IMG/VR virus record: IMGVR_UViG_3300028809_000473
Location: 1 to 38,185 of that record
DNA length: 38,185 nucleotides
Origin: a virus
Reading direction: 5' to 3' (one strand)
The notes under the pieces are model-generated. The model made no database searches. It had not been told where the DNA came from and saw only the letters and a list, made by a program, of their open reading frames with translations. Below, one piece after another: positions 10,112-36,580 of the stretch. Within the stretch, counting starts at the first letter, position 1; each line of letters begins with the position of its first letter. The position numbers were made by a program, and so were the translations under genes.

Positions 10112-10620
10112 CCCTCGTCCTCCGCCTCGTCGTCCTCGTCGGCCAGGCCGTCGGCGAGGTCGCCGAGGGTGTAGCCGCTCCAGCACCGCGCGCAGTAGAA
10201 GGCGGCGTCCTTCCGGTCCGGGAGGTCGGAGGGCTTCGCGAACAGTCGCTCCGTGGCGTGGCTGCACGACTGGCAGCGCAGTATGGCGATGGACCGGAAC
10301 ACGATCTTTCGCCGGTTCATCTCCGCCCGCAGGGCCCGCGCGTAGTCGTAGACGAAGCCTTTGTCCTGACCGGAGAACACCGTGCTGGTCAGCTCGCAGA
10401 GCTGCGCCCGGCGCAGCACCGTCGCGTCGTCCAGGCGTTCCCACTGCGAGCGGAACGCCGGCGAAGTGCGGTAGCCCTTGGCCCGCCGCAGCAGGTCGGC
10501 GAACTCTTCCGCCGTCGGGGCGGTGTACCCCTCGGGCGGCCAGACCCTGTACCGGGGCGCGTAGTCGTTGTCCCGCTTCATCTCCAGCAGGGCCCGGCGG
10601 GACAGTGTGTCGACGGCCAT
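10108..10620 (-). CDS. 170-aa zinc-ribbon protein upstream of methyltransferase
   Basis: ATG 10620 to TGA 10108, overlapping the methyltransferase start (ATGA). The N-terminal two thirds are helical and basic; a ribbon with CQSC (about 115-118) and CARC (about 143-146) follows, and the tail is strongly acidic (DEDDEAEDEG). The arrangement of helical domain, zinc ribbon and acidic tail suggests a DNA- or protein-binding accessory factor translated with the methyltransferase. Family unknown. Confidence 0.72.
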   Translation of the reverse strand: MAVDTLSRRALLEMKRDNDYAPRYRVWPPEGYTAPTAEEFADLLRRAKGYRTSPAFRSQWERLDDATVLRRAQLCELTSTVFSGQDKGFVYDYARALRAEMNRRKIVFRSIAILRCQSCSHATERLFAKPSDLPDRKDAAFYCARCWSGYTLGDLADGLADEDDEAEDEG

Positions 10621-11778: not shown

Positions 11779-12192
11779 TCAGGCGCTGACCAGTTCGCGG
11801 GTCTTCGCCGGGCGCACCGTCTGGCGGACGGTCACCGGGGCGCCGCCGGCCAGGACCATGAGCACCACGGCCGCCCTGTACTCCGCCTTGCGCGGCCTGT
11901 AGTTCCGCAGCAGGACGTCCACCTGTGCGGCGGTGTAGTGGTAGGTCCGGCGGGTCCGGCTCTCCGAGCCGCGCACGGTGCGGTGGCGGCGGACGACCTT
12001 GACGGGCTCGACGCCGAGGCGCTTGGCCACGGAGCGCAGGCCGTTCGCCACACCCTCGGCCGCCTCGGCGTCCACGCCGGCCGCGAGGGCGTGGGTGGCG
12101 AGGGCGCGGCCTCGGTGCAGCGAGCGGGCCAGCCGGGTGGCGGCGGAGCGCTGGGCGACGATCCGGCGGCGGAGGCGGGAGGTCTGCGTCAT
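11779..12192 (-). CDS. 137-aa very basic protein, unknown
   Basis: First gene after the promoter at 12244-12272; ATG 12192 follows CAAGGAACGAGGAACCGACC exactly. About one residue in five is Arg or Lys (RLRRRIVAQRSAATRLARSL at the N-terminus), so it is likely to bind nucleic acid. RRTYHYTAAQVDVLLRNYRP in the C-terminal half could be a helix-turn-helix-like segment. No confident family. Confidence 0.7.
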   Translation of the reverse strand: MTQTSRLRRRIVAQRSAATRLARSLHRGRALATHALAAGVDAEAAEGVANGLRSVAKRLGVEPVKVVRRHRTVRGSESRTRRTYHYTAAQVDVLLRNYRPRKAEYRAAVVLMVLAGGAPVTVRQTVRPAKTRELVSA

Positions 12193-12213
12193 GGTCGGTT
12201 CCTCGTTCCTTGG
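12193..12213 (-). promoter_or_regulatory. Reference copy of the start-associated sequence
   Basis: The minus strand reads GACCAAGGAACGAGGAACC then GACC-ATG. Close copies precede most minus-strand genes, for example those starting at 364, 528, 2202, 2511, 5061, 6784, 7769, 8867, 12957, 13881, 15614, 18140, 18901 and 19519, and a copy precedes the plus-strand start at 37524. It contains two Shine-Dalgarno-like blocks (AAGGAA and GAGGAA), but conservation extends beyond what ribosome binding needs. Confidence 0.75.
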
Positions 12214-12243
12214 TCTGTCGCCGGTCCTCCCGGCGATGACTTA

Positions 12244-12272
12244 ATTAAATCATAGACTCGCGACGGGGGCAA
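12244..12272 (-). promoter_or_regulatory. Promoter of the TTGTC/TTTAATTAA family
   Basis: TTGCCC (12267-12272), 17 bp, TTTAAT (12244-12249); drives the basic 137-aa gene and probably the two small genes after it. Confidence 0.72.
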
Positions 12273-12287
12273 CCCCGGGACGCGAAG

Positions 12288-12317
12288 AAGCCCCGGAGCA
12301 ACGCGGCTCCGGGGCTT
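12288..12317. terminator. Terminator after the 63-aa gene
   Basis: AAGCCCCGGAGC (12288-12299) pairs with GCTCCGGGGCTT (12306-12317), a perfect 12-bp stem. Confidence 0.78.
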
Positions 12318-12332
12318 TGGTGCGGCTGGCAG

Positions 12333-12524
12333 TCAGGCCGACCGCGCGGTGAACCCGTTGGCTGTGCGGCGGACCTCCACGCCGGGGCCGACGATGCGGC
12401 CGGCGACGATCCGGGTCCCGCTCGGGGCGAGCTGGTCCATCGCGTCCAGCAGCTCGGCGACCTGGACAGCGAGGGCCAGGGCCCGCTCCTCCATGTCACG
12501 GATCTCGCGCATGCTTCCCTTCAC
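12333..12524 (-). CDS. 63-aa helical protein, unknown
   Basis: Begins at GTG 12524 behind GAGGGGGACACC; an ATG four codons later is an alternative. The first 35 residues form a heptad-like helix (MEERALALAVQVAELLDAMD) that may dimerise, followed by short strands. It is the last gene of its unit, only 10 bp from the 140-aa gene, and is followed by a clear terminator. Confidence 0.62.
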   Translation of the reverse strand: MKGSMREIRDMEERALALAVQVAELLDAMDQLAPSGTRIVAGRIVGPGVEVRRTANGFTARSA

Positions 12525-12534
12525 GGTGTCCCCC

Positions 12535-12957
12535 TCAGTACCACTGGCCGTCGGCGTTGCGGCGGGTCACGTACGTCTGCACGGTCCGGACCGTGTCCGA
12601 CCAGAGACCGGGCAGCTCGTACCGGACGGACGCGTGGTGCCGGTACGTGGCCGCCACGACGACCGGGAAGTGGTCGCCGTGCAGGCTGTGCATGGTGACC
12701 GTGTCGCCGGCGCGCAGCCCGAGGAAGTCGGGCGACTCGACCATCGCCGCGCCCTCCCACCACCGGCGGTAGTCCGCAGGGTTTCCGCGCGGCGTCTCGG
12801 GCATCGGCTCGAACAGGTCGCCGGGCCGGTAGTCGTAGTGGACGCCGGGGTCCAGCGCGTACCGGGTCAGGGACAGGGTCGGGCTGTAGAGGTGGCCCCG
12901 GTCCAGTGCCGCCGGGACGGCGGACTGCGGGAGAGTCTGCGTGTCGGTCGTGGTCAT
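12535..12957 (-). CDS. 140-aa protein, unknown
   Basis: ATG 12957 (MTTTDTQTLPQSAVP) is chosen over an upstream in-frame start because it overlaps the previous stop by ATGA and is preceded by CAAGGAACGAGGACAGC. The protein is beta-rich with many aromatic residues (LYSPTLSLTRYALDPGVHYD; RYELPGLWSDTVRTVQTYV) and a G-D-T-V-T-M strand suggesting a small barrel. No recognised family. Confidence 0.65.
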   Translation of the reverse strand: MTTTDTQTLPQSAVPAALDRGHLYSPTLSLTRYALDPGVHYDYRPGDLFEPMPETPRGNPADYRRWWEGAAMVESPDFLGLRAGDTVTMHSLHGDHFPVVVAATYRHHASVRYELPGLWSDTVRTVQTYVTRRNADGQWY

Positions 12958-13550
12958 GCTGTCCTCGTTCCTTGGTCGTCGTGCGCGAAGTCGATGGCCC
13001 GGTCCAAGGCGGGCCAGAGCCGGCCGTCCCGGCCCCACACGGGGTCGATGACGGCGAGCAGCACGCCCTCACGGATCAGCCCCCGGCGGGCGCGGCGGCC
13101 GATGCCGGGCAGCTCCGAACCGAGCTGGAGGCGGCCGGGACGGCCTCCGAAGCCGGTGTGCGGCTCGCCGCCCCACCGGGTCGCCAGCAGGCCGCGAGAC
13201 GGCCCCACAGCGCTTCCGGGGCCGTACGCGGTGACGATGAGCCCGGCCGCCCGCGCGGTCCGTACGAGGAGCCGCAGCAGCGGGTCCCCGCCGGCGATCC
13301 AGCCCTGCACGGCCGCGCGCTGCTCCCACCGGCGGCCGTCGAACGCCTCGGCGTCCATACCCGGCTGCGAGTCGGTGGTGACGTAGCCGCGCCGGTTCAG
13401 CCGGGCAAGCACCGGCACCAGGTGCGCCGTCTCCTCGTCCGGCCGCGCGGCGCCGTACCCGGGCCGCGCGTCGATGCGGCCCTCCAGCCAGCCGGCCATC
13501 GCCGCGCCCACCTCGTCGATGCTGCGGGCGTCGCGCCAGATCCGGTCCAT
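12954..13550 (-). CDS. DUF6919-like protein
   Basis: 198 residues from ATG 13550 (MDRIWRDARSIDEVGAAMAG). The pattern AGWLEGRI...PGY...PDEETAHLVPVLARLNRRGYVTTDSQPG followed by RRWEQRAAVQGWI matches what I recall of the actinobacterial DUF6919 family, whose function is unknown. Its last codons (DDQGTRTA) are encoded by the start-associated sequence of the next gene, so both the amino-acid tail and the ribosome-binding signal share the same bases. Family assignment is from memory. Confidence 0.7.
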   Translation of the reverse strand: MDRIWRDARSIDEVGAAMAGWLEGRIDARPGYGAARPDEETAHLVPVLARLNRRGYVTTDSQPGMDAEAFDGRRWEQRAAVQGWIAGGDPLLRLLVRTARAAGLIVTAYGPGSAVGPSRGLLATRWGGEPHTGFGGRPGRLQLGSELPGIGRRARRGLIREGVLLAVIDPVWGRDGRLWPALDRAIDFAHDDQGTRTA

Positions 13551-13589
13551 GGCTTCCTCCGTCCTCGGTTCCTCGGTCAGGGTGGGGCA

Positions 13590-13623
13590 GGGCCCCGGTA
13601 TCGCCAACGCGGCGCCGGGGCCC
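13590..13623. terminator. Hairpin after the 82-aa gene
   Basis: GGGCCCCGG (13590-13598) pairs with CCGGGGCCC (13615-13623); intra-operonic, so possibly an attenuator. Confidence 0.55.
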
Positions 13624-13632
13624 GGCGGGTGG

Positions 13633-13881
13633 TCAGGCGCGACGGCGCAGGAAGGGGAACGGGTCCACGGCGTCGGCGTCGGTGAACAGCCAGGCGTCGA
13701 ACTTGTCGGGCCCCATGCGCTTCTCCAGCTCGTCTATCAGCCAGCCCCGCGTGACGGCCAGTTCCTCGCTCATCGGCAGCGTCTCGGACGTCAGCCACGT
13801 CACGCTCAGGGCCTCGTCCGACATGCGGCTGATCTTCTCCTGGACTGCTGTCACGGCCTCGCGCAGTGCGTTCGCGTCCAT
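13633..13881 (-). CDS. 82-aa protein, unknown
   Basis: ATG 13881 (MDANALREAVTAVQEKISRM) after CAAGGAACGAGGAAC. All-helical acidic protein with an amphipathic N-terminal helix and a Phe-rich C-terminus (DPFPFLRRRA). First gene of the unit promoted at 13931-13960. No family recognised. Confidence 0.68.
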   Translation of the reverse strand: MDANALREAVTAVQEKISRMSDEALSVTWLTSETLPMSEELAVTRGWLIDELEKRMGPDKFDAWLFTDADAVDPFPFLRRRA

Positions 13882-18272: not shown

Positions 18273-18668
18273 TCAGCGGGCGATGACGGGGCGGTGCAGG
18301 TCGCGGTGCTCCACGGTGACCACGTGGCCCCGACGGCGCAGGCGTCGGGCGAGGACGTTGGCGGCGACGGCGGAGCGGTGACGGCCGCCGGTGCAGCCGA
18401 CCGCGACGACGGTGTCCCGGGCGGACGGGCCGGCGTCGTACGCCCGGACGGCGCGCACCGTGGCGGCCAGCAGGGCCTTGACGCCCGGCGTGCCGAGCAC
18501 GGCACGGCGCACCGTGCGGTCTGCGGCGGTCAGCTCGCGCATGGCCGGGCTGACGTGCGGGTCCCGGAAGTGGGCCCGCAGGTCCAGGGTCAGGTGGGCG
18601 GCCGGGGCGTCGCCGTGGCCGTAGCCGAAGGAGACGATCCGGACGGCGCCGGGGCGGGGCTTGGTCAT
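18273..18668 (-). CDS. Stand-alone RapZ C-terminal domain-like protein
   Basis: 131 residues. VRIVSFGYGHGDAPAAHLTLDLRAHFRDP matches the RapZ-C start (FGFKYG.P..AD...D.R...NP, quoted by its parts), and VVAVGCTGGRHRSAVAANVLA followed by VEHRDL matches its most conserved block (GCTGGxHRSV...HRD). Full RapZ proteins are RNase adaptors with an N-terminal P-loop kinase domain; that domain is absent here. In enterobacteria the C-terminal domain binds small RNAs and a metabolite. A stand-alone copy on a mobile element could bind RNA or a nucleotide. Identification is good, function inferred. Confidence 0.82.
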   Translation of the reverse strand: MTKPRPGAVRIVSFGYGHGDAPAAHLTLDLRAHFRDPHVSPAMRELTAADRTVRRAVLGTPGVKALLAATVRAVRAYDAGPSARDTVVAVGCTGGRHRSAVAANVLARRLRRRGHVVTVEHRDLHRPVIAR

Positions 18669-18670
18669 GG

Positions 18671-18901
18671 TCACCAGTCCCCGAAGGTGCAGACAGGCCC
18701 GCACGCGCCGCGTTCGTGCGGGCCGCCCGGAGCGAAGTGGTTCGAGACCTCGGCGTCGGTCGGGTAGCCGCCGGTGCGCCCCCTCTCCGTCCGGCCGTTG
18801 CCCCAGCGGACCGGCGCGGCACCTGCCTTCAGCTCGTCGCAGCGCGGGCAGCCGTCGAACTTCTGGCCGAAGCGCGGAGCGTGGTTGTGCTTCGTGGTCA
18901 T
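18671..18901 (-). CDS. 76-aa zinc-binding-type protein, unknown
   Basis: ATG 18901 after CAAGGAACGAGGAAGCG. CPRCDELKAG near residue 18 and CGPVC near the C-terminus give two Cys pairs, with His residues at 5, 7 and 55. The middle is Gly/Arg-rich. It ends two bases before the RapZ-C-like start, so the two are likely co-translated. No family recognised. Confidence 0.65.
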   Translation of the reverse strand: MTTKHNHAPRFGQKFDGCPRCDELKAGAAPVRWGNGRTERGRTGGYPTDAEVSNHFAPGGPHERGACGPVCTFGDW

Positions 18902-18919
18902 CGCTTCCTCGTTCCTTGG

Positions 18920-19519
18920 TCAGGCGGGCGGGTTGTTGTCGATGCCGAGCAGGCCGCACATCGCGTCGCCGGTGTACTCGGCGAAGTCGGTGAAGTGTCC
19001 GAGGCCGCGCAGGAGCAGCGGCCACACGTCGCTCAGGATCTCGTCGGCCGCGTTCTGGAACCGGCGGTAGTCGTTCGGTCCACCGTCAAACGTGATCGTC
19101 GGGTCAGCCTCCAACGCTGCCCGGCGGTCCGACTCGCCCTGGAGTTCCCCGCACACGGCGCGGCCCGGGGTCCACAGACCCTGTTCGCGGAGCCAGATGT
19201 CGTAGGCCCGTTCCCCGGCGGCGCCGCCGACGAGGACGGGACGCGCCGTGTCGCCGTCCGGGTGGACGAAGGAGACGGCGCCGCTCGGGATGACGTTGCC
19301 GGGGTCTTCCCGGACGGAGATGCGGGCCATCCGGGCGCCCAGCCTCCAGTTGACGAGGAAGTGCCCGAGTTCATGGGCTGCGACCCCCTGGAGGTGTTGC
19401 GCGGGGGTGAAGTCGGCGACTTCGCCCAATGCCCCAGCCCCGGTGAAGAAGGTACGTGTGGGGAAGGCCGTCCGCACGGCCCCGTCGGGGTCCGCCACTC
19501 CGATGTTCGTGTGCCACAT
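18920..19519 (-). CDS. M41-like metallopeptidase (FtsH protease-domain type)
   Basis: 199 residues. GVAAHELGHFLVNWRLG holds the zinc motif HELGH (49-53). VLVGGAAGERAYDIW (96-110) corresponds to the LLGGRAAEE helix of FtsH-family M41 peptidases, and FDGGPNDYRRFQNAADEIL (144-162) to the GASNDL motif that gives the third zinc ligand, here D150. There is no AAA+ ATPase and no membrane helix, so it is a detached protease domain. It might cut small or unfolded substrates or be paired with a host unfoldase. ATG 19519 follows a perfect start-associated sequence. Confidence 0.82.
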   Translation of the reverse strand: MWHTNIGVADPDGAVRTAFPTRTFFTGAGALGEVADFTPAQHLQGVAAHELGHFLVNWRLGARMARISVREDPGNVIPSGAVSFVHPDGDTARPVLVGGAAGERAYDIWLREQGLWTPGRAVCGELQGESDRRAALEADPTITFDGGPNDYRRFQNAADEILSDVWPLLLRGLGHFTDFAEYTGDAMCGLLGIDNNPPA

Positions 19520-20928: not shown

Positions 20929-20960
20929 GTCAGTGATCCTTTGTCAGAGTTCCTTGGTCG

Positions 20961-21132
20961 TGTCGGCCGGCCGACAGGGCGAGAGAGAGACCCAAGGCCG
21001 GAGGTCGTTCGGCCGGTCGGCCGACAGCCGACTGACGCGCCCGGCACCGTCAGGCATGATCGCCGACTGACGGTGTGACGGGCCGACACAGTCAGTGTGC
21101 CCCACCGGATGACCCTCCGACACCTGTCTGAC
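20961..21132. repeat. Cluster of GGCCGACA and CCGACTGACG repeats (candidate clt)
   Basis: The gene-free spacer next to the 3' end of the traB-like gene carries GGCCGACA at 20969, 21019 and 21081, its inverse TGTCGGCC at 20961 (forming a 16-bp palindrome with the first copy), and CCGACTGACG at 21028 and 21063, plus related CTGACA/CCGACA words to 21132. Streptomyces TraB pumps recognise 8-bp repeats at clt; this is a candidate or, alternatively, an operator array. Confidence 0.5.
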
Positions 21133-21143
21133 ACACCGGCAAA

Positions 21144-21190
21144 CGTCAGGGCGGGCACCCGGTTGACTGCCCCGGATACCCGCCCTGACG
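21144..21190. terminator. Terminator of the traB-like gene
   Basis: CGTCAGGGCGGG (21144-21155) pairs perfectly over 12 bp with CCCGCCCTGACG (21179-21190), 16 bp beyond the stop. Confidence 0.72.
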
Positions 21191-21205
21191 CGGCGCCTCA
21201 CGACC

Positions 21206-23223: not shown

Positions 23224-23790
23224 TCACTGCACGGAGAAGCCGCCACGGCGGCCCCCGGGACGGTTCACCCTGCGGTCGGACTCCAGGTCGTCCAGCAGGC
23301 CCTCGAACCGGCGCCACGCCTTGACCGCGTCGGCCGCGCCGGCGACGCAGGAGTTCGCCATGTGGTCCAGGTCCCGACCCACCTGCCGCAGCGTGAGCGC
23401 GAGCTTGGCCGCCTGCGCGGGGCTCATCCACCCGTCCTTGGCCTGCCGCGCGTTGGCCCGCGCGGACGCCTTGAGCTGGCCTTCCGCCATCTTCGCGCTG
23501 ACGGCGAGGTAGTTCAGGATCGCCCGGTACGCCTCGCAGAAGGCGTGCAGGTCGTCCTGGTTCGACAACTCCATGGAGCCGATGGACTGCGCGAGCTGCG
23601 CAATGTTCTGACCCCTCGGCCCGCCGGGCCGGGACGCGCCCTGACCTGCGGACTTGCTCGTCTTCTCCGCCGGCGCCGGGTGCCCCTGGGAGTCCAGGCC
23701 CTGGCGGCGCAGCTCCTCGGCCGACTTGCCGTTGGCCCGGCCCCGCGCGCTGAACGGGTTGTCCGGGTGGTTCACTCCGATACGGCTCAT
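23224..23790 (-). CDS. Transfer accessory protein (TraA-like position)
   Basis: 188 residues from ATG 23790. The N-terminal 65 residues are basic, Gly/Ser-rich and probably disordered; the remainder is a helical bundle (ELSNQDDLHAFCEAYRAILN; AAKLALTLRQVGRDLDHMAN). It sits directly before the FtsK/TraB pump, the place occupied by small helical transfer proteins in Streptomyces plasmids. A hairpin and a weak promoter separate it from the SpdB-like gene. Function inferred from position. Confidence 0.66.
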   Translation of the reverse strand: MSRIGVNHPDNPFSARGRANGKSAEELRRQGLDSQGHPAPAEKTSKSAGQGASRPGGPRGQNIAQLAQSIGSMELSNQDDLHAFCEAYRAILNYLAVSAKMAEGQLKASARANARQAKDGWMSPAQAAKLALTLRQVGRDLDHMANSCVAGAADAVKAWRRFEGLLDDLESDRRVNRPGGRRGGFSVQ

Positions 23791-23871: not shown

Positions 23872-23900
23872 CCTAAATCAAGCGTCTCGCGGTCAGTCCT
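23872..23900 (-). promoter_or_regulatory. Weak promoter candidate for the transfer accessory and pump genes
   Basis: TTTAGG (23872-23877) in TTGATTTAGGTAAA resembles the family -10, but the hexamer 17 bp upstream is AGGACT. Confidence 0.4.
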
Positions 23901-25086
23901 TCGCCGCAAGTGCCTTCTCAGCGCGCTGGATCGCCTTCTTCAGGCTGTCCGGCTTGACGTCCTCGTAGCCCGGCAGGGTGGGGACGATGGCCCGGACCTC
24001 GTCCCGGCTGTGTCCCGTCTCCATGAGGAACCGGACGGCGGCCGACACGCTGCTCAGCTTGTCCTCGGGGACATCGACCTTGCTGTCCCGCGCGGGGGAC
24101 ACGGCCGGGGACACGGTGTCCCCCTCGGCCTTGATCTCCTCGGGCGTCTTGTCCACCCGGATGCGGACGGAGGGACGCGCGGGGGACACGGCGGGGACAG
24201 CCACGCGGGTGCGGGACACGACCGGCGGGACAGGCGCGGGGACAGCCGGCGCGGCGGGGGACATGTCCCCGGGGACAGGGGACACAGGGGCAACCGGGGC
24301 CGTGTCCCGGGGGACAACCTGCGTGGGGGACATGTCCCCGGGGACGTCGTCCTGTCCCTTGTCCCGGGACACCAGGGACAGCGCCCAGTCGTGGCGCGCG
24401 TCGATGCCCGCCAGGTCCGTGACCGACTTGCGCCGGACGATCCGGGCGACGATGTCCGCCTCCGCCCGCGCGGCCTCGTCGGAGGACAGTCCGTGGCGGG
24501 CGGCGTCGATGGCGGTGGCCAGCTTGGCCGTCCGGCGGCGGTGGCGGATGGTGCCCGCCTTGACGGCGGCCACCTCGTCGGCGAGGTCCACCGCGCGGTC
24601 GGCGGCCCGGCTGCGGGCGATGGCGGCGGAGTCGGCGCCGCGCCGGCCGATGCCCAGGAAGGCCGTCAGGCGCTCCCGCAGCTCGCGCAGGGCGGACGCC
24701 AGCAGGCCGTTGGACTTCTCGCCGGACATCCGCAGCTCAAGGCCCAGAAGCAGGTGCAGCAGCACAGCCAGCAGCACCGGGCCGAGGACGACCCGGACGG
24801 GGCCGCCGACGCTGCCCGACACCTGGAAGGCGGGGATGGCCTGCACGAGGACTGCCGCGTAGGCGAGGTACGCCGGGCCCTTGGTCCGGGTGGCCCACGC
24901 GTACACCGTGAGGGCGATAATGGCGGCCTCGGCGACGCCGCACAGCACGGCGCGTTCGGTCTGGTCGGAGATCTGGAGCGCCGTCTCCAGGAAGCGGTAC
25001 GAGGTGTCGGCGGACATGGCCAGGGCCAGGGCGGCCGGGACAAGCAGACCCAGCGTCGCAGCCGTGGTGCGGGACATGCGGGACAT
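23893..25086 (-). CDS. DUF2637 SpdB-like spread protein
   Basis: 397 residues from ATG 25086. Four transmembrane helices at about 8-27, 43-62, 68-88 and 94-118 carry the DUF2637 pattern (SYRFLETALQISDQTERAVL; GVAEAAIIALTVYAWATRTK). A basic coiled segment follows (about 130-235), then a Pro/Val/Ser-rich linker with repeated GDMSP and VSPA units (about 250-345), and a helical C-terminus (AAVRFLMETGHSRDEVRAIV). DUF2637 proteins are encoded with TraB in Streptomyces plasmids and serve intramycelial spread. The linker repeats follow from dense GGGACA/TGTCCC words in the DNA, suggesting the DNA signal shaped the protein. Confidence 0.82.
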   Translation of the reverse strand: MSRMSRTTAATLGLLVPAALALAMSADTSYRFLETALQISDQTERAVLCGVAEAAIIALTVYAWATRTKGPAYLAYAAVLVQAIPAFQVSGSVGGPVRVVLGPVLLAVLLHLLLGLELRMSGEKSNGLLASALRELRERLTAFLGIGRRGADSAAIARSRAADRAVDLADEVAAVKAGTIRHRRRTAKLATAIDAARHGLSSDEAARAEADIVARIVRRKSVTDLAGIDARHDWALSLVSRDKGQDDVPGDMSPTQVVPRDTAPVAPVSPVPGDMSPAAPAVPAPVPPVVSRTRVAVPAVSPARPSVRIRVDKTPEEIKAEGDTVSPAVSPARDSKVDVPEDKLSSVSAAVRFLMETGHSRDEVRAIVPTLPGYEDVKPDSLKKAIQRAEKALAAKD

Positions 25087-25134
25087 GGTCTGTCCTCTCT
25101 TCCTTGGTCAGGTTCCTTGGTCGGTGCTGATTTT

Positions 25135-25163
25135 CTTAAATCATCGTACACGCTATCTGTCCC
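25135..25163 (-). promoter_or_regulatory. Promoter candidate for the SpdB-like gene
   Basis: TTTAAG (25135-25140), 17-bp spacer, GGGACA (25158-25163). The -35 is itself one of the repeated GGGACA words, so binding to the cluster could repress this promoter. Confidence 0.5.
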
Positions 25164-25295
25164 CGTGTCCCCTGCCCCGGCAAACCTTTGTCCCGGGACA
25201 TCACCACCCCGTGTCCCGAGGGGGACGTGTCCCCGTGTCCCGAGGGGACATGTCCCGGTGTCCCGGTGTCCCGGTGTCCCCGGGGACACGTCAAA

Positions 25296-25320
25296 GCCCC
25301 TGCGGTTGTCCCGCAGGGGC
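25296..25320. terminator. Terminator of the 25.3-27.1 kb unit
   Basis: GCCCCTGCGG (25296-25305) pairs with CCGCAGGGGC (25311-25320), a perfect 10-bp stem with TTGTC loop. Confidence 0.72.
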
Positions 25321-25348
25321 CCTGTGTCCCTGTCCCCCTGTCCCGCCG

Positions 25349-25684
25349 TCAGGTGTCGTCCCTGTCCCCGGAGATGTCCCGGCAGGGGCGGAAAGGGTCA
25401 AAGCCGTCGCACGGATGCTGGGGGCGGAACGGGTCGGCGCTCTGTACCCCCGAAGCCCTGTCCCGGTCGTCCGCCGTGACGATCTCGCTGAACCAGAAGT
25501 CGGTGATCTCGACGTCCCGCAGCTCCACACCCTCGGAGCGGGACACGTCCCGCGCGGCCTCCGCACGCAACCGCATCTCGTCGCACCGGGCGAGGGACCA
25601 CGCCGTCCCGTCCAGCACCTTGGCGTGTCCCCGGACGGTGGCTGTCCCGCCGTAGAAGTATCCGAACTTCAGCCGTCCGGTCAT
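25349..25684 (-). CDS. 111-aa protein, unknown
   Basis: ATG 25684 (MTGRLKFGYFYGGTATVRGH) overlaps the upstream stop by ATGA, which decides the start. Alpha/beta protein with EGVELRDVEITDFWFSEIVT and a C-terminal duplicated DPFRPQHPCDGFDPFRPC. The DPFRP pair may be a peptide docking motif. Last gene of its unit; its 3' part carries several TGTCCC words. Family unknown. Confidence 0.66.
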   Translation of the reverse strand: MTGRLKFGYFYGGTATVRGHAKVLDGTAWSLARCDEMRLRAEAARDVSRSEGVELRDVEITDFWFSEIVTADDRDRASGVQSADPFRPQHPCDGFDPFRPCRDISGDRDDT

Positions 25685-25941
25685 CGCAAGATCTCCGATC
25701 CGGGCGCGACAGTCCATGCGCGGACAGGGGAGCGGGGGACAGCGCGCAAGGCGCCTGTCCCCTGAAGGACGATCAGGTGATCCGTCACCCATGAGGCCGG
25801 GCGCCGGACTGCGGCGGCGAGGTCGGTGAAGTGTCCCGGGGTGAACTCCCGCACGCCCCGGTCGTGCAGGTCCCGTATGCGCTGCCGTACGGCGTCGGCG
25901 AGCGCGGGCGGTGAGCCGGTCGTGACTGTGGTGGTCGGCAC
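25681..25941 (-). CDS. Small winged-helix DNA-binding protein
   Basis: 86 residues from GTG 25941 (preceded by CGGAGAACGTC); the open frame extends upstream, but that part overlaps the glycosyltransferase gene. The middle HDRGVREFTPGHFTDLAAAV then RRPASWVTDHLIVLQGTGAL is the same winged-helix pattern as in the TraB-like C-terminus and the 149-aa protein. It overlaps the next gene by ATGA. Likely binds DNA, possibly the local repeat cluster. Confidence 0.65.
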   Translation of the reverse strand: MPTTTVTTGSPPALADAVRQRIRDLHDRGVREFTPGHFTDLAAAVRRPASWVTDHLIVLQGTGALRAVPRSPVRAWTVAPGSEILR

Positions 25942-25960
25942 GACGTTCTCCGTTCCGTGT

Positions 25961-26599
25961 TCAGATATGAAGGGGCAGGCCCTTGCCGGCGGTGTGTCCG
26001 CCGTGGACATTCCAGATCCACGTCCGAGCGTTCAGGTGCTCGAACACGGCTCCGTCGTCCAGCAGACGCACCAGATAATCCTCGTCCTCGCCACGGTAGC
26101 GGCGGCCGACCCCTTCTGTCGTCACTTCCTGACCGGGACGAAAGCCGCCTACGGCACGGACCCGTTCCGTCCGTACCAGATGCGTCATCGGGATGAACGA
26201 TCCGAGCCGGCGCAGATGTGCCTCCTGTTCGGCTCCGAAACGCACGCCCCAGGGGGAGACCCACTGGCCCTGCACGGACACGGCCGTCGGGTCCGCGCCT
26301 CCGCGCACCACCGGCGCCGGGTAGACGAGGTCCGGCCGCTCGCGCGACTGCTCCATCACCCGCATGCACGCCATGAGGTGGTTGGGCTTCAGCTCGTCAT
26401 CGTCGTCGAGCCAGGCCACGACGTCGGCGGTGACGCGCTGAAGCGCCCGGTTCCGGGCCGCGTCGGCCCCGGTGCGCAGGCTGTCGCGTTCCACGACGAC
26501 CTGGTCCGGCCGGCGGCGCTGCGCCCGTACGGAGGCCAGCGCGCGTTCCAGCATGGCCTCCCGCCCGGGGATTGTGGGGATGACGACGGCGACTGTCAT
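25961..26599 (-). CDS. Family 2 glycosyltransferase
   Basis: 212 residues from ATG 26599 (overlapping the upstream TGA; a GTG three codons earlier is possible). TVAVVIPTIPGREAMLERAL opens a GT-A fold; AWLDDDDELKPNHL (DDDD 65-68) is the metal site; RYRGEDEDYLVRLLDDGAV gives the conserved acidic catalytic block. No membrane helix. It is a second glycosyltransferase, unrelated in detail to that at 16575-17297. Acceptor unknown. Confidence 0.85.
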   Translation of the reverse strand: MTVAVVIPTIPGREAMLERALASVRAQRRRPDQVVVERDSLRTGADAARNRALQRVTADVVAWLDDDDELKPNHLMACMRVMEQSRERPDLVYPAPVVRGGADPTAVSVQGQWVSPWGVRFGAEQEAHLRRLGSFIPMTHLVRTERVRAVGGFRPGQEVTTEGVGRRYRGEDEDYLVRLLDDGAVFEHLNARTWIWNVHGGHTAGKGLPLHI

Positions 26600-29879: not shown

Positions 29880-29908
29880 GTTAAACCCTCTTCACCCACC
29901 GGGTTCCG
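29880..29908 (-). promoter_or_regulatory. Promoter candidate for tRNA-like gene and SSB-like gene
   Basis: TTTAAC (29880-29885) followed by TAAATCC immediately after the nuclease stop; the hexamer 17 bp upstream is GGAACC, so the -35 is weak. Confidence 0.45.
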
Positions 29909-31202
29909 CGAGTTCCCGGAGCCTCGTCTGCATGACGTCGACCAGCGCGTCCACCTCCGCCTTGGACAGGCCGGCCTTCGTCGCCTCCTGCCAGACGGCC
30001 GACGCCTCACCCTTGGACGTGACCGCCTTGGCCCGCTCGCGCAGGGTCGGCGGCCGGACCGTCGTCCGGGACGTCACGCCGGTGTCCGGGTCGTAGTCCC
30101 CGGCCACCGGAGCCGACTTCACCGTTTGCGCGGCCGGCCGCGACGGGGCGAACGTGCCCGCCTCGGAGACCATGACCGGGGAGGCGAGGTTGCGCAGCTT
30201 GCGCCACTCCCGCACCCGCTCACACAGCACGGCCGCGTTCCAGCCCGACTCCAGGTCGATGCCGTAGACGGCCGGCTGCTTCGTCCCCGACTTGTCCACC
30301 GGCAGGTGGATGACGATGCCCGCGTCCAGCCGGACCTTCGTGCCCGGCTTGTCGAACCGGCTCAGCGGGTCCGGCTCCCACGTCTCCTCGTGCCGGTCCC
30401 ACACCCCGGCCGTGTTGATGCCCTGCGCGTACGTCCCGAGCTGGATGGCGATCTCCTGCCACCCGTAGTCGAGATCCCGGCCGGTCTTCTTGTCGCCGAT
30501 CACGTACTCCCCGGGGGACAGACGCACCTCCGCCCGGCCGATCCCCAGCACCAGCGGCTTGGTGACCTTGTAGCAGTTGTCCGAGGTCCCGGCGACGCCG
30601 TACTGCTTGACGACCGTGGTGAACTCGATGAGGTGCGGCACGGGCTCCAGGCCCGTCTCCTCCAGCAGCCGGATGTACGTCTCCACGTCGTCCCGGCAGT
30701 CCGGCGGCACCTGCTCCAGGATGCTGCGCGGCCCGCCCGGCGAGTGCCACGCCCGGTCAGCCATCTCCGTGAACGAGTGCATGGACGTGCCGAGGTTGGC
30801 GGCGACCTTGTCACCGGCGGCCGTCTTCAGCTCCGCCGTCAGCTCGTCCAGCAGTTTCTTGTCCGCGCGCACGTGCTTGCCGTGGGCGCGCTGCACGATG
30901 TCCGGCCGCATCGTCGCCCCGAGCAGCGCCATACGCAGACCCCACTGGGACAGGGCGTACGTGTCGCTGATGGACTTGGCGAACGTCGTCGCCCTCGTCC
31001 ACGCCTGCTCCCGGCCGGTGTCCGGGTGCGGGATGAGGTACCGGCCGTACCGGTCGCGCTTGGTCTCCTTCTCCCCGTGCGTCCCGGACCCGCCGGCGAG
31101 GAACTGCGCCGCCGACGCGTTCCGGTCCTGCGCGGGAGCCGGGGCCGGGGCCGGCCGGCCGCCGAGGAACCGCGCCGCCGCGTCCGCCTGGTCAGTCGTC
31201 AC
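29892..31202 (-). CDS. RecB/Cas4-like PD-(D/E)XK exonuclease
   Basis: 436 residues if translation starts at GTG 31202, just inside the end of the 70-aa gene. The core is NLGTSMHSFTEMADRAW (H142), HLIEFTTVVKQYGVAGTSDN (E193, D208) and YVIGDKKTGRDLDYGWQEIA with the D237-x-K pair, then IQLGTYAQG (Q motif): the phage RecB-type nuclease arrangement. It would process DNA ends for recombination or replication. The N-terminal DAAARFLGG is also found in the overlapping 70-aa protein. The same frame is open upstream as far as 32780, so it may also be made as part of a 962-aa fusion (see separate entry). Confidence 0.82.
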   Translation of the reverse strand: MTTDQADAAARFLGGRPAPAPAPAQDRNASAAQFLAGGSGTHGEKETKRDRYGRYLIPHPDTGREQAWTRATTFAKSISDTYALSQWGLRMALLGATMRPDIVQRAHGKHVRADKKLLDELTAELKTAAGDKVAANLGTSMHSFTEMADRAWHSPGGPRSILEQVPPDCRDDVETYIRLLEETGLEPVPHLIEFTTVVKQYGVAGTSDNCYKVTKPLVLGIGRAEVRLSPGEYVIGDKKTGRDLDYGWQEIAIQLGTYAQGINTAGVWDRHEETWEPDPLSRFDKPGTKVRLDAGIVIHLPVDKSGTKQPAVYGIDLESGWNAAVLCERVREWRKLRNLASPVMVSEAGTFAPSRPAAQTVKSAPVAGDYDPDTGVTSRTTVRPPTLRERAKAVTSKGEASAVWQEATKAGLSKAEVDALVDVMQTRLRELAEPGG

Positions 31203-32780
31203 CGCAGCACTCCTGCCCCTGCCAGCCGTCGTCGCCGTCGGCGCGGATGATGTCACCGATCCGGATTGCGGCGAAACAGCCGGAACACTCGCCCTCGTAG
31301 GCGGCGGGGAACCAGGGGCCGGGGCCGTCGTCGGGCTGGTCGTTGTCGGCGTCGATGCCGCCGAGGAAGCGGGCCGCTGCTGCGGCGTCCTGTCGTCCGT
31401 GCATTCCGTGGTCTCCTGTTCCGTGGTCCGGGGAGCGGGGGCCCGCTCCACCGTCTCGCCGAGGTTGGTCAGATTGCCGGTGCGGCCGTCGTGCGGGCCG
31501 CCGATGACGATGGCGTGGATGACGCCGTTGGTCTCGCCGGTGACGCGCATGAGCGAACCGCGCCGGGTGAAGTGGTCGCCGGTTTCCAGAAGGCCGAGGA
31601 GCACCGGGCCGGTAGCTGCTCGGACGGCCGCCACATCGCGGCGCACCTGGCCCATCACGTCCCGAGGGTCCAGGTCGGGGCTGGTCGCCTCGTCGTTCCC
31701 GGAGTCCACGGCGCCGCAAAGCCTGCACCGGAAAACCAGTTCTTCCCCGTCGTCCTCCGCCGGGTCGTTTTCGGTGAACCCGTCCGGGTGCGTGCACGGC
31801 GTACCGCAGGCGACGCACACCAGCCGGTCGTCCTCCACGCCGAACACCCCGTCGGCGTGGTCGCACGGACGGCCGTCCTCGGTCTCGCCCTGCGGCAGCC
31901 GGCTCTCAGGCGGGGTGAACCAGCCCACGGCGTCGCAGTGCTCGCAGGCGGGGACCTCCCGGCCGTCCACGCTGAGCGTGTCTCGGAATCCGTCCGGGTG
32001 TGTGCACGCCGCCTGCCGCGCGGCCTTCTCCGCGTCCACCCGCGCGGTGCACTCCGCACAGGCGACGACGCCGTGGGGCACGTTGGTGCCGCAGCCGGGG
32101 CACCGGTGGTCGTCGGTGTTGCACTTACCGCACGCCGGGTCGAACCCCTCCGGGCTCGGGCGGCCCTCGGTGAGCAAGGCGGACACCCTTGCCCTGAGCA
32201 GAGGGCCACCCGTGGGCGCGCCCATGAACCGCTCGGCTTCGGTCCGGGTGCCGTCGTCCATCGCGTCCAGGACGGTTCCGACGCCGGACGTCTCCCGGGT
32301 CAGGGCCTCCGCCAGCGGCGAGCCGTTGAACTGGTCGGCCATCGTCGGGATCGGCACACCGGCGCAGATGTAGCACTGGCCAACCGGGACGTGCCCGCAG
32401 TCGACAGCCAGCGACGCGACGAGACCGTCCGTCGTGCCGACGATGTCCGGGTACGTGCCGAGCGGGAAGTCACTCCCGGCGGGGCACGGCCGGGGCGTCG
32501 CTTCCGGGGTGAGATGGCTGCGCACCCGGCCGTTGTCGGTGAGCTGCACCGGGTGCCTGCACAGGCGGCACTGTGGGCTGTCGGCGGTCATGTCCTCGGC
32601 GAGCGCGACACCGGCCGGCGTGGCGGGCTTCTCCCCGGCGCCCTTGCACTTGCGGCTGTCCGGGTTGGCCTGCCAGTCGGGGTTGTTGGCGGTGTGGTGG
32701 CGGACCGTGCCGTCCGCGTTGACGCTGCACTCCTTGCCGCACACGGCGCACGGTGCGCGCTCAGGGGTCGACTGAGTCAT
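29892..32780 (-). CDS. 962-aa open frame: zinc-ribbon array fused in frame to the nuclease
   Basis: ATG 32780 follows ACCAAGGAACCAGGAAGG. The first about 455 residues contain repeated metal sites: CAVCGKEC, CRLC, C..CGKCN, CPGC, CAEC, then three related units of the form C-x-H-x-D-G-F ... C-x2-C (CTHPDGF, CDHADGV, CTHPDGF). No stop follows; the frame passes through a Ser/Thr/Pro/Ala-rich stretch (about residues 456-527), which is the shadow of the 70-aa gene, into the nuclease. Either the zinc-ribbon protein has lost its stop and is fused, or the linker is real and the 70-aa gene is embedded. Zinc-ribbon part confident, extent uncertain. Confidence 0.6.
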   Translation of the reverse strand: MTQSTPERAPCAVCGKECSVNADGTVRHHTANNPDWQANPDSRKCKGAGEKPATPAGVALAEDMTADSPQCRLCRHPVQLTDNGRVRSHLTPEATPRPCPAGSDFPLGTYPDIVGTTDGLVASLAVDCGHVPVGQCYICAGVPIPTMADQFNGSPLAEALTRETSGVGTVLDAMDDGTRTEAERFMGAPTGGPLLRARVSALLTEGRPSPEGFDPACGKCNTDDHRCPGCGTNVPHGVVACAECTARVDAEKAARQAACTHPDGFRDTLSVDGREVPACEHCDAVGWFTPPESRLPQGETEDGRPCDHADGVFGVEDDRLVCVACGTPCTHPDGFTENDPAEDDGEELVFRCRLCGAVDSGNDEATSPDLDPRDVMGQVRRDVAAVRAATGPVLLGLLETGDHFTRRGSLMRVTGETNGVIHAIVIGGPHDGRTGNLTNLGETVERAPAPRTTEQETTECTDDRTPQQRPASSAASTPTTTSPTTAPAPGSPPPTRASVPAVSPQSGSVTSSAPTATTAGRGRSAAVTTDQADAAARFLGGRPAPAPAPAQDRNASAAQFLAGGSGTHGEKETKRDRYGRYLIPHPDTGREQAWTRATTFAKSISDTYALSQWGLRMALLGATMRPDIVQRAHGKHVRADKKLLDELTAELKTAAGDKVAANLGTSMHSFTEMADRAWHSPGGPRSILEQVPPDCRDDVETYIRLLEETGLEPVPHLIEFTTVVKQYGVAGTSDNCYKVTKPLVLGIGRAEVRLSPGEYVIGDKKTGRDLDYGWQEIAIQLGTYAQGINTAGVWDRHEETWEPDPLSRFDKPGTKVRLDAGIVIHLPVDKSGTKQPAVYGIDLESGWNAAVLCERVREWRKLRNLASPVMVSEAGTFAPSRPAAQTVKSAPVAGDYDPDTGVTSRTTVRPPTLRERAKAVTSKGEASAVWQEATKAGLSKAEVDALVDVMQTRLRELAEPGG
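31192..31404 (-). CDS. 70-aa protein embedded in another frame, zinc-type
   Basis: ATG 31404 after ACAGGAGACCACGGA. Starts MHGRQDAAAAARFLGGIDAD and contains ECSGCFAAIRIGDIIRADGD and QECCGDD, that is CxxC plus CC. DAAAARFLGG is repeated as DAAARFLGG at the start of the nuclease. The amino-acid composition is natural here, while the overlapping long frame is low-complexity, so this is the more likely coding frame for this stretch. The downstream nuclease GTG lies within its last codons. Confidence 0.65.
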   Translation of the reverse strand: MHGRQDAAAAARFLGGIDADNDQPDDGPGPWFPAAYEGECSGCFAAIRIGDIIRADGDDGWQGQECCGDD

Positions 32781-33366: not shown

Positions 33367-33395
33367 GCTAAATCATACCTGACGGTCGCGCTGCA
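33367..33395 (-). promoter_or_regulatory. Promoter candidate overlapping the helicase stop codon
   Basis: TTTAGC (33367-33372) preceded by TATGA; that TGA is the helicase stop. No good -35 at 17-18 bp. Confidence 0.45.
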
Positions 33396-36030
33396 TGTAA
33401 GGGTCCAGCTTGCGGGAGGCGAGGGTGACCGCGAACAGGTCGCTGGCGAGGCCGGCCCGGATCTCCTCGGGCACGGTGTGCCCGGCGTAGCGGAGCATTC
33501 CGATCAACTTCGGAGACGCCGGCTTCTTCCTCCACGCCGCCGTCCGGGTCATGTTGAGCGCGGACCGATCGGTGGCCTCGGTCTCCGCCCACGCCATGGC
33601 GATGCCGAGGTCCAGGCCCTCGTGCAGCCGCTCCCAGTTCCCGCTCGGCGGGGCGTAAGCGACGTCCCACTTCTCGGCGCCCTCGCGGGACGGCCACAGC
33701 AGGATCTCCCCGTTGTCGCCGAGCGGGATGAACTGGATTCCCGCTCGGGTGCGCAGCCACGAGTAGGCGGCCGACGCCTTGAACAGGTCGATGTCCCGGT
33801 GGGTCAGCGCGAACCGCAGCGAGCCGGCCGGAACGCGGGCGTCCTTGCTGGACTCCTCGCGCTCGTACGCCTCGGCCAGAGTCTCGCCGTCGGCCACCTC
33901 CCGGAGCTGCGCGCCCGGCTCCAGGTCGACCAGCGTGCACAGCGACCCGCCCTCGCCGGCGAGGATGAGCACCAGGGCGTCCTCCTTGCCGGTGGCCGGC
34001 GACGGCCGCAGCACCCGCCCCACCATCTGTATGAACAGCGGCTCGGACTTGGTCGGCCGGGCGATGACCGCGCAGTCTGCGAACGGGAAGTCGGCACCCT
34101 CGGTCAGCACCATGCAGTTGACCAATGTGCGGATCTCGCCGGTGCGGAACTTGCGGTAGATGTTCAGCCGCTCCTCGCGGGGCGTGCCGCCGTGCACGTA
34201 CGCCGCGCTCGGCAGGGCCTCGGCCGTCTCCCGCGCGACCTCCACCGTCGGCGTGAACACGATGGGGGACCGGCGGTCGGCCGCGTGCTCCTCCAGCACC
34301 TTGGCGATGATCTGCGGGCCGCCCGCCTCCATCAGCGCGTCGCCCAGGGACGAGGCGGTGTAGTCGCCCCGGCTCCGCTTGACGTCCCCGAGGTGCAGGG
34401 TGTCCACGTCGATGAGCCGGGAGCGCACATCGGTGAGGTAGCCCCGGCTCATCGCCCACAGCGGGGAGCGCGTGTAGACGGCGTCCTCCCACACGTCCCC
34501 GAGACCCTGGCCGTCGCCCCGGGCGAGTGTCGCGGTGAAGCCGACGGCCTTGGTGCCGGGCATCCCGCTGTAGCAGCCGAGGGCGGCGAGGATGTTGCGG
34601 TAGCTGACGGCCGCCGCGTGATGGCATTCGTCAACAATGACCAGCCCGACCTTGCCGCACTTCTCCTGGCTGTCGAGCAGCCGGTGCAGCCGCTTCTCCC
34701 GAGCGAGGGTCTGCACCGAGCAGACCATGACGTCTGCGGCGATGTTGTCGTCCGCCGCCTTCACCTTGCCGGTGAACAGGGACGGCTCGGTCTGCTTCAG
34801 CTTGGACAGCGTCTGGTCGGCCAGCTCGTCGCGGTGCACGAGGATGACGACGCGCGTGCCCTCCGACTCGACGTGCTCGGCCGCCATGCGGGAGAACACG
34901 ACAGTGTTGTGCGTGACGATGTGGTGCCTCGTCACCTGGTACAGGCTGTCCGGCGCGGCCACCCGGATGCACCGGATCTCCTGGTCCTCCACTCGCTCCA
35001 CGGCCACGATGGTGCGCCGGGGTTCGAACGTCCGGCGCGGTCCGCCGGCGCGGTTCTTCCTCGGGGTGGACAGAGCGGGTGCGTCAGAGGGCATGAGGAT
35101 GTTGACCACTATGTTCTCGTAGTCCTCGCCGCTGGTCGGCTGAACCCGGTTGTAGCACCGCACGCTCGCGGTACCCCCGAGAGAGCAGACCAGTTCGCTC
35201 ACGTCGTCCGCCAGTCGCGGCGAGGTGGTGTGGTAGCAGACCGCCCGGCGTTCTGCCCGACTGGAGCCGTCGTTGTCCATGAGGCCGTGCAGCAGGGCAA
35301 GTCGCTGCGCCGTCCCGGCCTCCAGGTACCGGCGCGGGATGAACTTGTCCGCGCTGGCCACGTCCAGACCCATCACACGGATGTGCTTCTGAACCCCTCG
35401 GACGATGAAGCGGGGGCACCACTTCGTCTCGTCCACGGTCGCCCGGGTCACCTCGTGCTCCGCACGGACGCGTTCGGCCACGTGTTCGTCGGGCGTGGTC
35501 AGGACCGGGCTGGTGTGGCTCAGGTAGCCGTTGGCGAGCAGCGCCCCGAGCGTGTACGGGCCGATAGGGAGTTCCGCGTCGGGTGTGAGAGTGCCTGACA
35601 CCGGGATGGCCCACCGGTTGGCCCGCCCGTGCTTCAATCCGTGGTCCGCTATCTCCGACGTGCTGAGCGTGCGAACCTCCCGGGACGTACGCCGGTGCGC
35701 GTGGTCCCGCACGGTCCACAGGTGTTCCGCGTCCGTGACGACGGACGACCCGTCCCGGAAGGTCACACGGAACGCGGGCAGGACGCCACGGTCGTAGACG
35801 TCCACGACCTCGGTCGGGTGACCGTTGCTGCCGAACACGAGGTCCCCGGGCTCCAGGTCACCCCACTTGCGCAGACCGTCCGGGGTGGGAACTTCGGTGT
35901 TCAGTGGATGGCCTTTGCCCATGCCGGTCGCCAGCACGGCGGCCGGCCGCTGCATCCCGTCGGCCCACGCGGCGCGCACCGTGTCGATGCACTCGCGCTG
36001 GTACTCGCGCAGGGCCAGAGTCTGGCTCAT
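33373..36030 (-). CDS. Superfamily 2 DNA helicase precursor interrupted by an intein
   Basis: 885 residues from ATG 36030. After LREYQRECIDTVRAAW (Q-motif region) the Walker A is split: ATGMGK (34-39) is separated from TVVFSRM (376 on) by a 336-residue intein. Spliced, it gives ATGMGKTVVFS. Then ILVHRDELADQT (Ia), LVIVDECHHA (DEAD/H box II), GFTATLARGD (III), IVFTPTV (IV), VNCMVLTEGADFP (V) and QMVGRVLRPS (VI). The mature protein would be about 549 residues, typical of phage and plasmid DEAD-like helicases of the RadD/SSL2 type. Start overlaps the upstream stop by ATGA. Confidence 0.9.
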   Translation of the reverse strand: MSQTLALREYQRECIDTVRAAWADGMQRPAAVLATGMGKGHPLNTEVPTPDGLRKWGDLEPGDLVFGSNGHPTEVVDVYDRGVLPAFRVTFRDGSSVVTDAEHLWTVRDHAHRRTSREVRTLSTSEIADHGLKHGRANRWAIPVSGTLTPDAELPIGPYTLGALLANGYLSHTSPVLTTPDEHVAERVRAEHEVTRATVDETKWCPRFIVRGVQKHIRVMGLDVASADKFIPRRYLEAGTAQRLALLHGLMDNDGSSRAERRAVCYHTTSPRLADDVSELVCSLGGTASVRCYNRVQPTSGEDYENIVVNILMPSDAPALSTPRKNRAGGPRRTFEPRRTIVAVERVEDQEIRCIRVAAPDSLYQVTRHHIVTHNTVVFSRMAAEHVESEGTRVVILVHRDELADQTLSKLKQTEPSLFTGKVKAADDNIAADVMVCSVQTLAREKRLHRLLDSQEKCGKVGLVIVDECHHAAAVSYRNILAALGCYSGMPGTKAVGFTATLARGDGQGLGDVWEDAVYTRSPLWAMSRGYLTDVRSRLIDVDTLHLGDVKRSRGDYTASSLGDALMEAGGPQIIAKVLEEHAADRRSPIVFTPTVEVARETAEALPSAAYVHGGTPREERLNIYRKFRTGEIRTLVNCMVLTEGADFPFADCAVIARPTKSEPLFIQMVGRVLRPSPATGKEDALVLILAGEGGSLCTLVDLEPGAQLREVADGETLAEAYEREESSKDARVPAGSLRFALTHRDIDLFKASAAYSWLRTRAGIQFIPLGDNGEILLWPSREGAEKWDVAYAPPSGNWERLHEGLDLGIAMAWAETEATDRSALNMTRTAAWRKKPASPKLIGMLRYAGHTVPEEIRAGLASDLFAVTLASRKLDPYMQRDRQV
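34906..35913 (-). other. Class 3-type intein with DOD homing-endonuclease domain
   Basis: Residues 40-375 of the helicase precursor. It begins with GHPLNTEVPTPDG, so no Cys or Ser at position 1, and ends VTHN followed by Thr376. The class 3 WCT set is present: Trp105 in EHLWTV (block B), Cys354 in IRCIRVAAPDSLY (block F) and Thr376. DOD endonuclease motifs are LGALLANGY (161-169) and LLHGLMDNDG (246-255); the first has Asn167 where the metal-binding Asp is expected, so cleavage may be lost while splicing is kept. Confidence 0.88.
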
Positions 36031-36275
36031 CGGTCCCCCTCGTCGTTCCCGTCCAGCGCCCGCTCCAGCGCGCCGTAGCCCGGCCCCCGGCGCAGCCCGA
36101 GCAGCCGGTAAATTTCCGTGGCGTGCAGCATCCCGGACCGGGGGTCCGACGGAACCGGGTACGCCTCTTCCTTGCCGCACTGCTCCAACAGCCGGTCCAC
36201 CACGCGGCGCAGGTCCGTCTCGGACAGGGCCAGCGCCCGGGCCCGCAGCTCGTGGTTGTAGTCCTCCGCACTCAT
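36027..36275 (-). CDS. 82-aa helical protein upstream of helicase
   Basis: ATG 36275 (MSAEDYNHELRARALALSET) overlaps the upstream stop and its own stop overlaps the helicase start (ATGA at both ends), so the three genes are translationally linked. All-alpha, with LRRVVDRLLEQCGKEEAYPV and TEIYRLLGLRRGPGYGALER, the second resembling a helix-turn-helix. Possibly a helicase accessory. Unknown family. Confidence 0.66.
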   Translation of the reverse strand: MSAEDYNHELRARALALSETDLRRVVDRLLEQCGKEEAYPVPSDPRSGMLHATEIYRLLGLRRGPGYGALERALDGNDEGDR

Positions 36276-36580
36276 GCGGCCTTCGTCCCCTCGTACTCCG
36301 CCACGGCGCGGTCCCACGCGATGCGGGCCGGCTCGTCGGCGAACCGGGGGTCGGCACCGTGACGCGCGATCAGGTGCTCCCACAGGTCGGCGAAGTGCTC
36401 GCCGTCCCCGAGGCCGTCGCAGCGCACCGTCCACCAGCAGCTCGGGCAGTCGGCGTGCGGGCCGGTGGAGTGGGCCGCCGCGCGGCGCAGGCGCCCGAGG
36501 TAGTCCACCAGTTCCACGTCGTCCACGTCGGAGCCGAACAGGTTGAGCGCCGCCCCGTAGGCGGTCTGTTCCGTGGTCAT
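36272..36580 (-). CDS. 102-aa protein with CPSC motif, unknown
   Basis: ATG 36580 (MTTEQTAYGAALNLFGSDVD) is favoured; ATG 36631 gives a 119-aa form. GPHADCPSCWWTVRCDGLGD has three Cys and one His suited to a zinc site. The rest is helical and acidic. First gene of the helicase unit after the promoter at 36700-36728. No function assigned. Confidence 0.65.
   Translation of the reverse strand: MTTEQTAYGAALNLFGSDVDDVELVDYLGRLRRAAAHSTGPHADCPSCWWTVRCDGLGDGEHFADLWEHLIARHGADPRFADEPARIAWDRAVAEYEGTKAA

Follow-up and report, generated by a model that had tools for sequence, protein, structure and literature searches.

Organization of the spdB-like locus

The window, by which we mean the whole stretch of 38,185 nucleotides that was analysed, is an entire 38-kb IMG/VR record. 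This record is classed as viral, yet the nearest relative with an annotation is a linear plasmid, the 98.8-kb pS1D4-14.2 of Streptomyces sp. S1D4-14; further close relatives are IMG/VR records of 92-98 kb and Streptomyces contigs. Elsewhere the window encodes a sliding-clamp-like protein (1003-2202), a RapZ C-terminal domain protein (18273-19025), a phage-type exonuclease (29892-32780) and a helicase (33373-36357).

The locus of interest (Table 1) holds genes for a TraB-like translocase, a TraA-like protein and a hydrophobic, predicted membrane protein, which is encoded beside the other two as SpdB is and is called SpdB-like here. The name describes its character and setting: the protein has no match to any Pfam or NCBIfam family and no detectable homology to the characterised SpdB2/DUF2637 proteins. 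Its hydropathy profile shows three hydrophobic segments (residues 7-27, 45-66 and 91-122), and the membrane module that they belong to is 74-84% identical in relatives. It is followed by a proline-rich linker, residues 222-335 being disordered in the AlphaFold2 (AF2) model, and by a confidently modelled C-terminal domain with helices at 341-345, 347-356, 361-370 and 379-396 (mean pLDDT of the isolated domain, 82). Foldseek searches with the full model and with the C-terminal domain returned nothing significant; the best PDB matches of the domain had E>3, and several of these were DNA-binding proteins.

Table 1. Features of the spdB-like locus (window coordinates)
Feature	Position	Strand	Remarks
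Stand-alone TraB-type winged helix, 149 aa	20479..20928	-	NF041214, C-terminal part, E=2e-9
Separate clt-like CTGAC/CCGACA array	20950..21205		directly 3' of TraB-like gene; common to relatives with different spdB words
TraB-like FtsK/SpoIIIE-type translocase with C-terminal winged helix	21206..23209	-	NF041214 plasmid TraB, E=6e-87, below equivalog cut-off
TraA-like protein	23224..23790	-	weak NF041213 match, E=1e-4
SpdB-like gene, 397 aa	23893..25086	-	ORF; membrane module, linker and C-terminal three-helix domain
Codons of C-terminal three-helix (HTH-like) domain, proposed word reader	23896..24081	-	AF2; covaries with word
Word block 1	24068..24380	both orientations	22 TGTCCC/GGGACA, within linker-coding DNA and at its edge
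DNA for conserved membrane module (aa 1-234)	24385..25086	-	word-free except its first 50 bases
Word block 2	25158..25380	TGTCCC mostly +	19 words, mostly non-coding, upstream of spdB-like start
Four tandem octamers in block 2	25250-25281		TGTCCC at 25251, 25259, 25267 and 25275
Sparser word tail	25459..25837		inside 147-aa and 109-aa ORFs
Stand-alone TraB-type winged helix, 109 aa, alternative reader	25681..26010	-	NF041214, C-terminal part, E=0.002

A dense array of exact TGTCCC words

An earlier note on this DNA had reported about 50 copies of the word TGTCCC, or its reverse complement GGGACA, in 1.8 kb where about one was expected. Our count within 24071-25836 is 49 (27 TGTCCC and 22 GGGACA), which lies far above both dinucleotide and codon-matched nulls; stretches of the same length (1766 bp) elsewhere in the window contain 1.12 copies on average and six at most. 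Counted along the whole element, as that note had proposed, the word occurs 74 times compared to 29.9 ± 5.3 in dinucleotide shuffles, none of 100 of which reached 74, and only 22 of these copies fall in the 36 kb outside 24.0-26.0 kb. The coding DNA of the spdB-like gene alone carries 26 words, compared to 6.4 ± 1.8 after synonymous-codon shuffling (maximum of 14 in 2000 shuffles), and its linker-coding part carries 21, compared to 4.4 ± 1.7 when codons were drawn from the neighbouring genes (maximum of 12 in 5000).

About 0.9 kb separate the TraB-like start from the array, which lies upstream of it, past the TraA-like gene, and surrounds the spdB-like gene. The words are unevenly distributed over two blocks, with three at the start of the spdB-like gene and some in the next ORFs; their spacing is irregular, and they use both orientations and two reading frames. 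The four tandem octamers described previously are real, with TGTCCC recurring at 8-bp steps. That the words run on through coding DNA was borne out for the linker, whose coding block is full of them, but not for the gene as a whole, as the 657 bp from 24384 to 25040, which code for most of the conserved membrane module, contain no word fully inside. The DNA word does appear to be kept over the protein sequence: the GDMSP and VSP motifs of the linker are its by-products, and relatives with other words have DRDT, VST, VNT or ANT instead.

The array is also exact. In the window, perfect TGTCCC words are enriched 35-fold and words with one mismatch 1.1-fold. Across the five elements with this word, the enrichment of the exact hexamer is 35- to 40-fold, whereas one-mismatch versions occur at 0.4 to 1.1 times expectation.

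Related elements carry other words at the same place

Within about 3.7 kb around spdB, TGTCCC is present in 51-64 copies in four other distinct loci (L006/L017, L013/L015, L014 and L016; L numbers denote the loci compared). Other relatives have equally dense clusters at the same place of the SpdB-like gene, composed of a different word: TGTCGCG(G) in an S. canus plasmid and its kin (L002, L007, L009, L012), GGTTCCG in S. goshikiensis (L003), CTTTCG in pS1D4-14.2 (L001/L018), CGTCTC in L019 and CGTTGC in L020.

We compared the proteins in a clade of 13, using the last ~75 aa as the C-terminus. The similarity of the membrane modules (alignment score) is 0.60-0.95 throughout, whereas the C-termini differ. 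In all pairs with a C-terminal similarity of at most 0.14 the word is not shared (cosine ≤0.14), and pairs with a similarity of at least 0.41 share it (cosine ≥0.63), except L019 and L020, which have a related C-terminal type (0.43) and different words. In this clade, then, as would be expected of a sequence-specific, membrane-anchored binder, the membrane module is retained and the word and the C-terminal domain change in concert.

Since the linker and the C-terminal domain are adjacent, part of this covariation can be linkage. However, the word chosen from the linker also fills the block upstream of the gene, with 18-22 copies compared to 0.4 expected in all five TGTCCC members, 16 compared to 0.5 in L019 and 9 compared to 0.3 in L020. 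As the linker word predicts the content of a block from which it is separated by the membrane module, the covariation is not merely that of a linker swapped with its domain. In L002, L003, L007, L009, L012 and L001, the DNA that the linker word fills is instead on the downstream side of the gene. When all loci are taken together, the word is predicted better by the membrane module than by the C-terminus (partial correlation of 0.59 and 0.39, respectively). In Mantel tests on 99 loci, the similarity of the HTH and that of the membrane module both correlated with the word, an association confounded by phylogeny that we set aside as stand-alone proof.

L001, whose word is CTTTCG, retains a TGTCCC-type C-terminal domain as a separate ORF (10131-10541; 63% identity over 43 aa). 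It also has a second, weaker word zone at 11890-12700 (GTCCCGGA/GTCCGGGA) with five leftover TGTCCC words.

Word arrays in other SpdB-like and SpdB2 groups

The window-type membrane module was matched in 119 of 393 Streptomyces genomes. At many of these loci the linker words, namely CGGTCCCC, CGGTCCGA, CCGTCCCC, CGGACCA, CGGGTAC and CGGGCAG, go with the C-terminal type, small variants of the C-terminus being accompanied by small variants of the word; several other C-terminal types have no array. CGGGTAC words occur with a GIGQARAQRIRDAL-type C-terminal domain in L121, L110, L125 and L131, and a domain related to this type occurs with a few CGAGTAC words in L059 and L078. In the CGGTCCCC group, the words are confined to the linker, some of them in tandem protein repeats such as GTEPTGDRGPTD, and an FtsK gene was not found nearby in the genomes checked; as these words may be coding minisatellites of the usual kind, we give them less weight. 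Chromosomal SpdB-like genes with such tandem CGGTCCCC-bearing linkers include L028, L058, L064 and similar loci.

Arrays are likewise present in spdB2 genes, where CGTGAGC (pJV1 and pSN22), CGCGAAC (pWTY27) and CGTGAAC (most others) each occur with their own HTH subtype. The C-terminal domain of pSN22 matches HTH_23 with an E of 8e-4, below the Pfam cut-off; the public record of this plasmid (L021, 5361-6444) splits spdB into a pair of ORFs, of which the latter contains the HTH, owing to a frameshift or a sequencing error. An hhalign comparison of window-type with pJV1-type membrane modules gave no detectable homology (E of 0.3), so the design recurs on different scaffolds. In the tree of DUF2637-type SpdB2 proteins, three changes suffice among four word classes, and the two rarer classes are each a single clade, which means few independent changes. 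pIJ101 has no comparable word array. We found no description of spdB2 word arrays in the open-access literature, although one may exist elsewhere.

Two further ideas were examined and rejected. A one-residue code (GWVA with CGTGAGC, GWVS with CGTGAAC, AWVS with CGCGAAC) fitted 12 plasmids. Unfortunately, L152 combines GWVA with CGTGAAC, and because of this locus and the single-clade origin of each rarer word class, we retained only the link between subtype and word. Private words as incompatibility markers were rejected as well, as copies with the same word share genomes (L028 and L055 in G349, L041 and L079 in G284, and three in G273).

Candidate readers of the word and alternative explanations

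The earlier note took the words for TraB recognition sequences (TRS) of a clt locus, on which the TraB-like pump would be loaded by its matching C-terminal winged helix. The TraB-like gene is indeed near the array and its product has such a winged helix, and the tandem octamers resemble TRS, which are repeats of about 8 bp. A comparison of the winged helices makes this reading highly unlikely. TRS follow the specificity helix of the TraB encoded with them, and here the word does not: between the window and L001, whose words differ, the winged helices are 79% identical, and between the window and L014 or L016, whose word it shares, they are 53% identical. The 149-aa winged-helix protein shows a similar pattern of identities and does not follow the word either. 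Nor is the TGTCCC array a single cis locus beside the translocase. That place, adjoining the 3' end of the TraB-like gene, is taken by an array of CTGAC, with 9 copies in 330 bp compared to 0.87 expected. The CTGAC array is found there in all compared elements but L020, that is, in ten relatives (L001, L006, L013, L014, L016, L019, L002, L007, L009 and L012), and it resembles the clt repeat TGACACC of pWTY27, on which the translocase of that plasmid leaves its footprint and which also lies 3' of the translocase gene (PMC3583192). L020 has an array of TGATCAC, a different clt-like word, at this place (13515-13800). The clt of pJV1 is described as built of CCGCACA[C/G][C/G] repeats (PMC3583192), and in pJV1 as in pWTY27 the reported clt repeats are unlike the spdB words. 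Judging from its sequence and position, the CTGAC/CCGACA array is likely the clt of the window element, and as the spdB word differs from the clt-like one, two DNA codes seem to coexist side by side. The TGTCCC array may still be a new type of transfer or loading zone, as the same note suggested, but on this evidence the likeliest reader is the SpdB-like protein, not TraB.

Another small DNA-binding protein might read the words, above all the 109-aa winged helix, with the SpdB-like linker simply tolerating them. Its identity is 53-59% among TGTCCC members and 46% to L001, so the word is tracked weakly, and a 68-aa HTH ORF lies beside the array in S. canus. We nevertheless consider this unlikely, because the region of the recognition helix is nearly the same in L001 (RPASWVTDHLIVL compared to RPLSWIGDHLIVL), because L019 and L020 have arrays and no match to the 109-aa protein, and because such a reader leaves unexplained why the array is always in the gene of a membrane protein and why the word goes with the C-terminus of that protein. 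Somewhat less plausible is a role of the array chiefly in silencing or as an operator, in which many sites for a repressor, perhaps SpdB itself, keep the spread genes off. One word block is directly upstream of the spdB-like gene, and Streptomyces plasmids usually have their spread genes under the control of repressors (KorA/KorB of pIJ101, PMC4170104). However, nearly half of the some 50 sites, which extend over 1.8 kb, are within spdB-like coding DNA, where promoter control has no need of them, and the elements with TGTCGCG, GGTTCCG or CTTTCG have their non-linker sites behind the gene and not ahead of it. Least probable of all is the origin of the repeats by replicative slippage or as coding minisatellites that have no cis function, for which the chromosomal CGGTCCCC relatives, with their linker-only tandem repeats and no FtsK gene nearby in the genomes checked, would be a precedent. 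Decaying duplicates would leave near-copies, and one-mismatch words are not enriched; moreover, the words of the window are irregularly spaced, occur in both orientations and two reading frames, and fill separate coding and non-coding blocks alike.

A proposed membrane tether with its own address

The most likely explanation, to which we assign a probability of roughly 0.6, is that the words serve as private binding sites for the SpdB-like membrane protein, which the same DNA encodes and which would be tethered to them via its C-terminal domain. The N-terminal module would seat the protein in the membrane, and the three-helix domain, carried at the tip of a flexible linker, would read TGTCCC. 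The array would be kept where the DNA is free to carry it, namely in the non-coding upstream DNA and in the DNA coding for an unconstrained linker. As an outcome, a membrane anchor would be inherited together with its own address, apart from the clt of TraB, and the element would probably be held at the membrane or cross-wall, beside TraB, for intramycelial spreading, transfer or stable inheritance. Several observations speak against such a tether: the reported non-specific DNA binding of pSVH1 SpdB2, the different words of L019 and L020, the separate domain in L001, the lack of a fold match in our searches, the better prediction of the word by the membrane module over all loci, the few changes needed in the DUF2637-type tree, and L152.

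The proposed system resembles several known ones. Like the clt/TRS of pSVH1, pJV1 and pWTY27, it is based on a short, repeated, plasmid-specific word in a Streptomyces conjugative element, and its proposed reader, the HTH-like domain of a predicted membrane protein encoded on the element, would correspond to the helix-turn-helix with which the membrane-associated TraB reads its repeats. However, a clt has four (pWTY27) or nine (pJV1) repeats compared to some 50 words here, and the spdB-like array is in spdB coding DNA and its flank, consists of a word other than that of the translocase and is accompanied by a separate clt-like array. In pIJ101, the DNA site of a Spd protein likewise lies inside its own coding region: SpdA2 binds palindromes (sps) within its own gene, and loss of either the palindromes or the gene affects stability (PMC4170104). 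The sps is a single conserved 12-bp palindrome in 1-3 copies, common to many plasmids and bound by a small soluble protein (PMC4170104), whereas the spdB-like array is made of a hexamer that belongs to one lineage and is repeated tens of times, and its reader would be a predicted membrane protein.

The SpdB2 proteins of pSVH1/SLP2, pJV1 and pSN22 share with the SpdB-like protein a hydrophobic N-terminal module and the setting in a transfer operon, and the pJV1/pSN22-type genes also have word arrays, together with a C-terminal HTH where the window protein has an HTH-like domain; unlike these similarities, the membrane module of the pJV1 type has no detectable relation to that of the window. SpdB2 of pSVH1 is reported to be a membrane protein that forms oligomers, binds dsDNA in a non-specific manner and interacts with TraB. 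For SLP2, a stabilising effect of spdB2 is reported, an spdB2 mutant being unstable (both cited in PMC4170104). Plasmid centromeres and iterons (parS-ParB, parC-ParR, Rep iterons) similarly place an array of sites beside the gene of the binding protein. They differ in that a predicted membrane protein is the proposed reader here, with the array running through the DNA that codes for its linker, and we noticed no ParA/ParB pairing among the genes beside the spdB-like array.

More tentatively, and at somewhat less than even odds, these arrays may represent a second, TraB-independent address system, in which a gene would be its own centromere-like landing strip and a private word of the lineage would be rewritten, in coding and non-coding DNA alike, together with the domain that reads it. 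Such a system would extend over at least two membrane scaffolds with no detectable homology and also to chromosomal genes with no translocase nearby.

It has long been asked what the Spd proteins do in Streptomyces conjugation. TraB alone suffices for DNA transfer, yet for spreading in the mycelium plasmids retain several spd genes. With a private address in the spdB gene, these proteins would have a directly testable role, that of a membrane tether which knows its own element. If true, this would be a clear case of a protein linker shaped by a DNA signal and not by protein function, and the natural set of paired domains and words could yield a recognition code.
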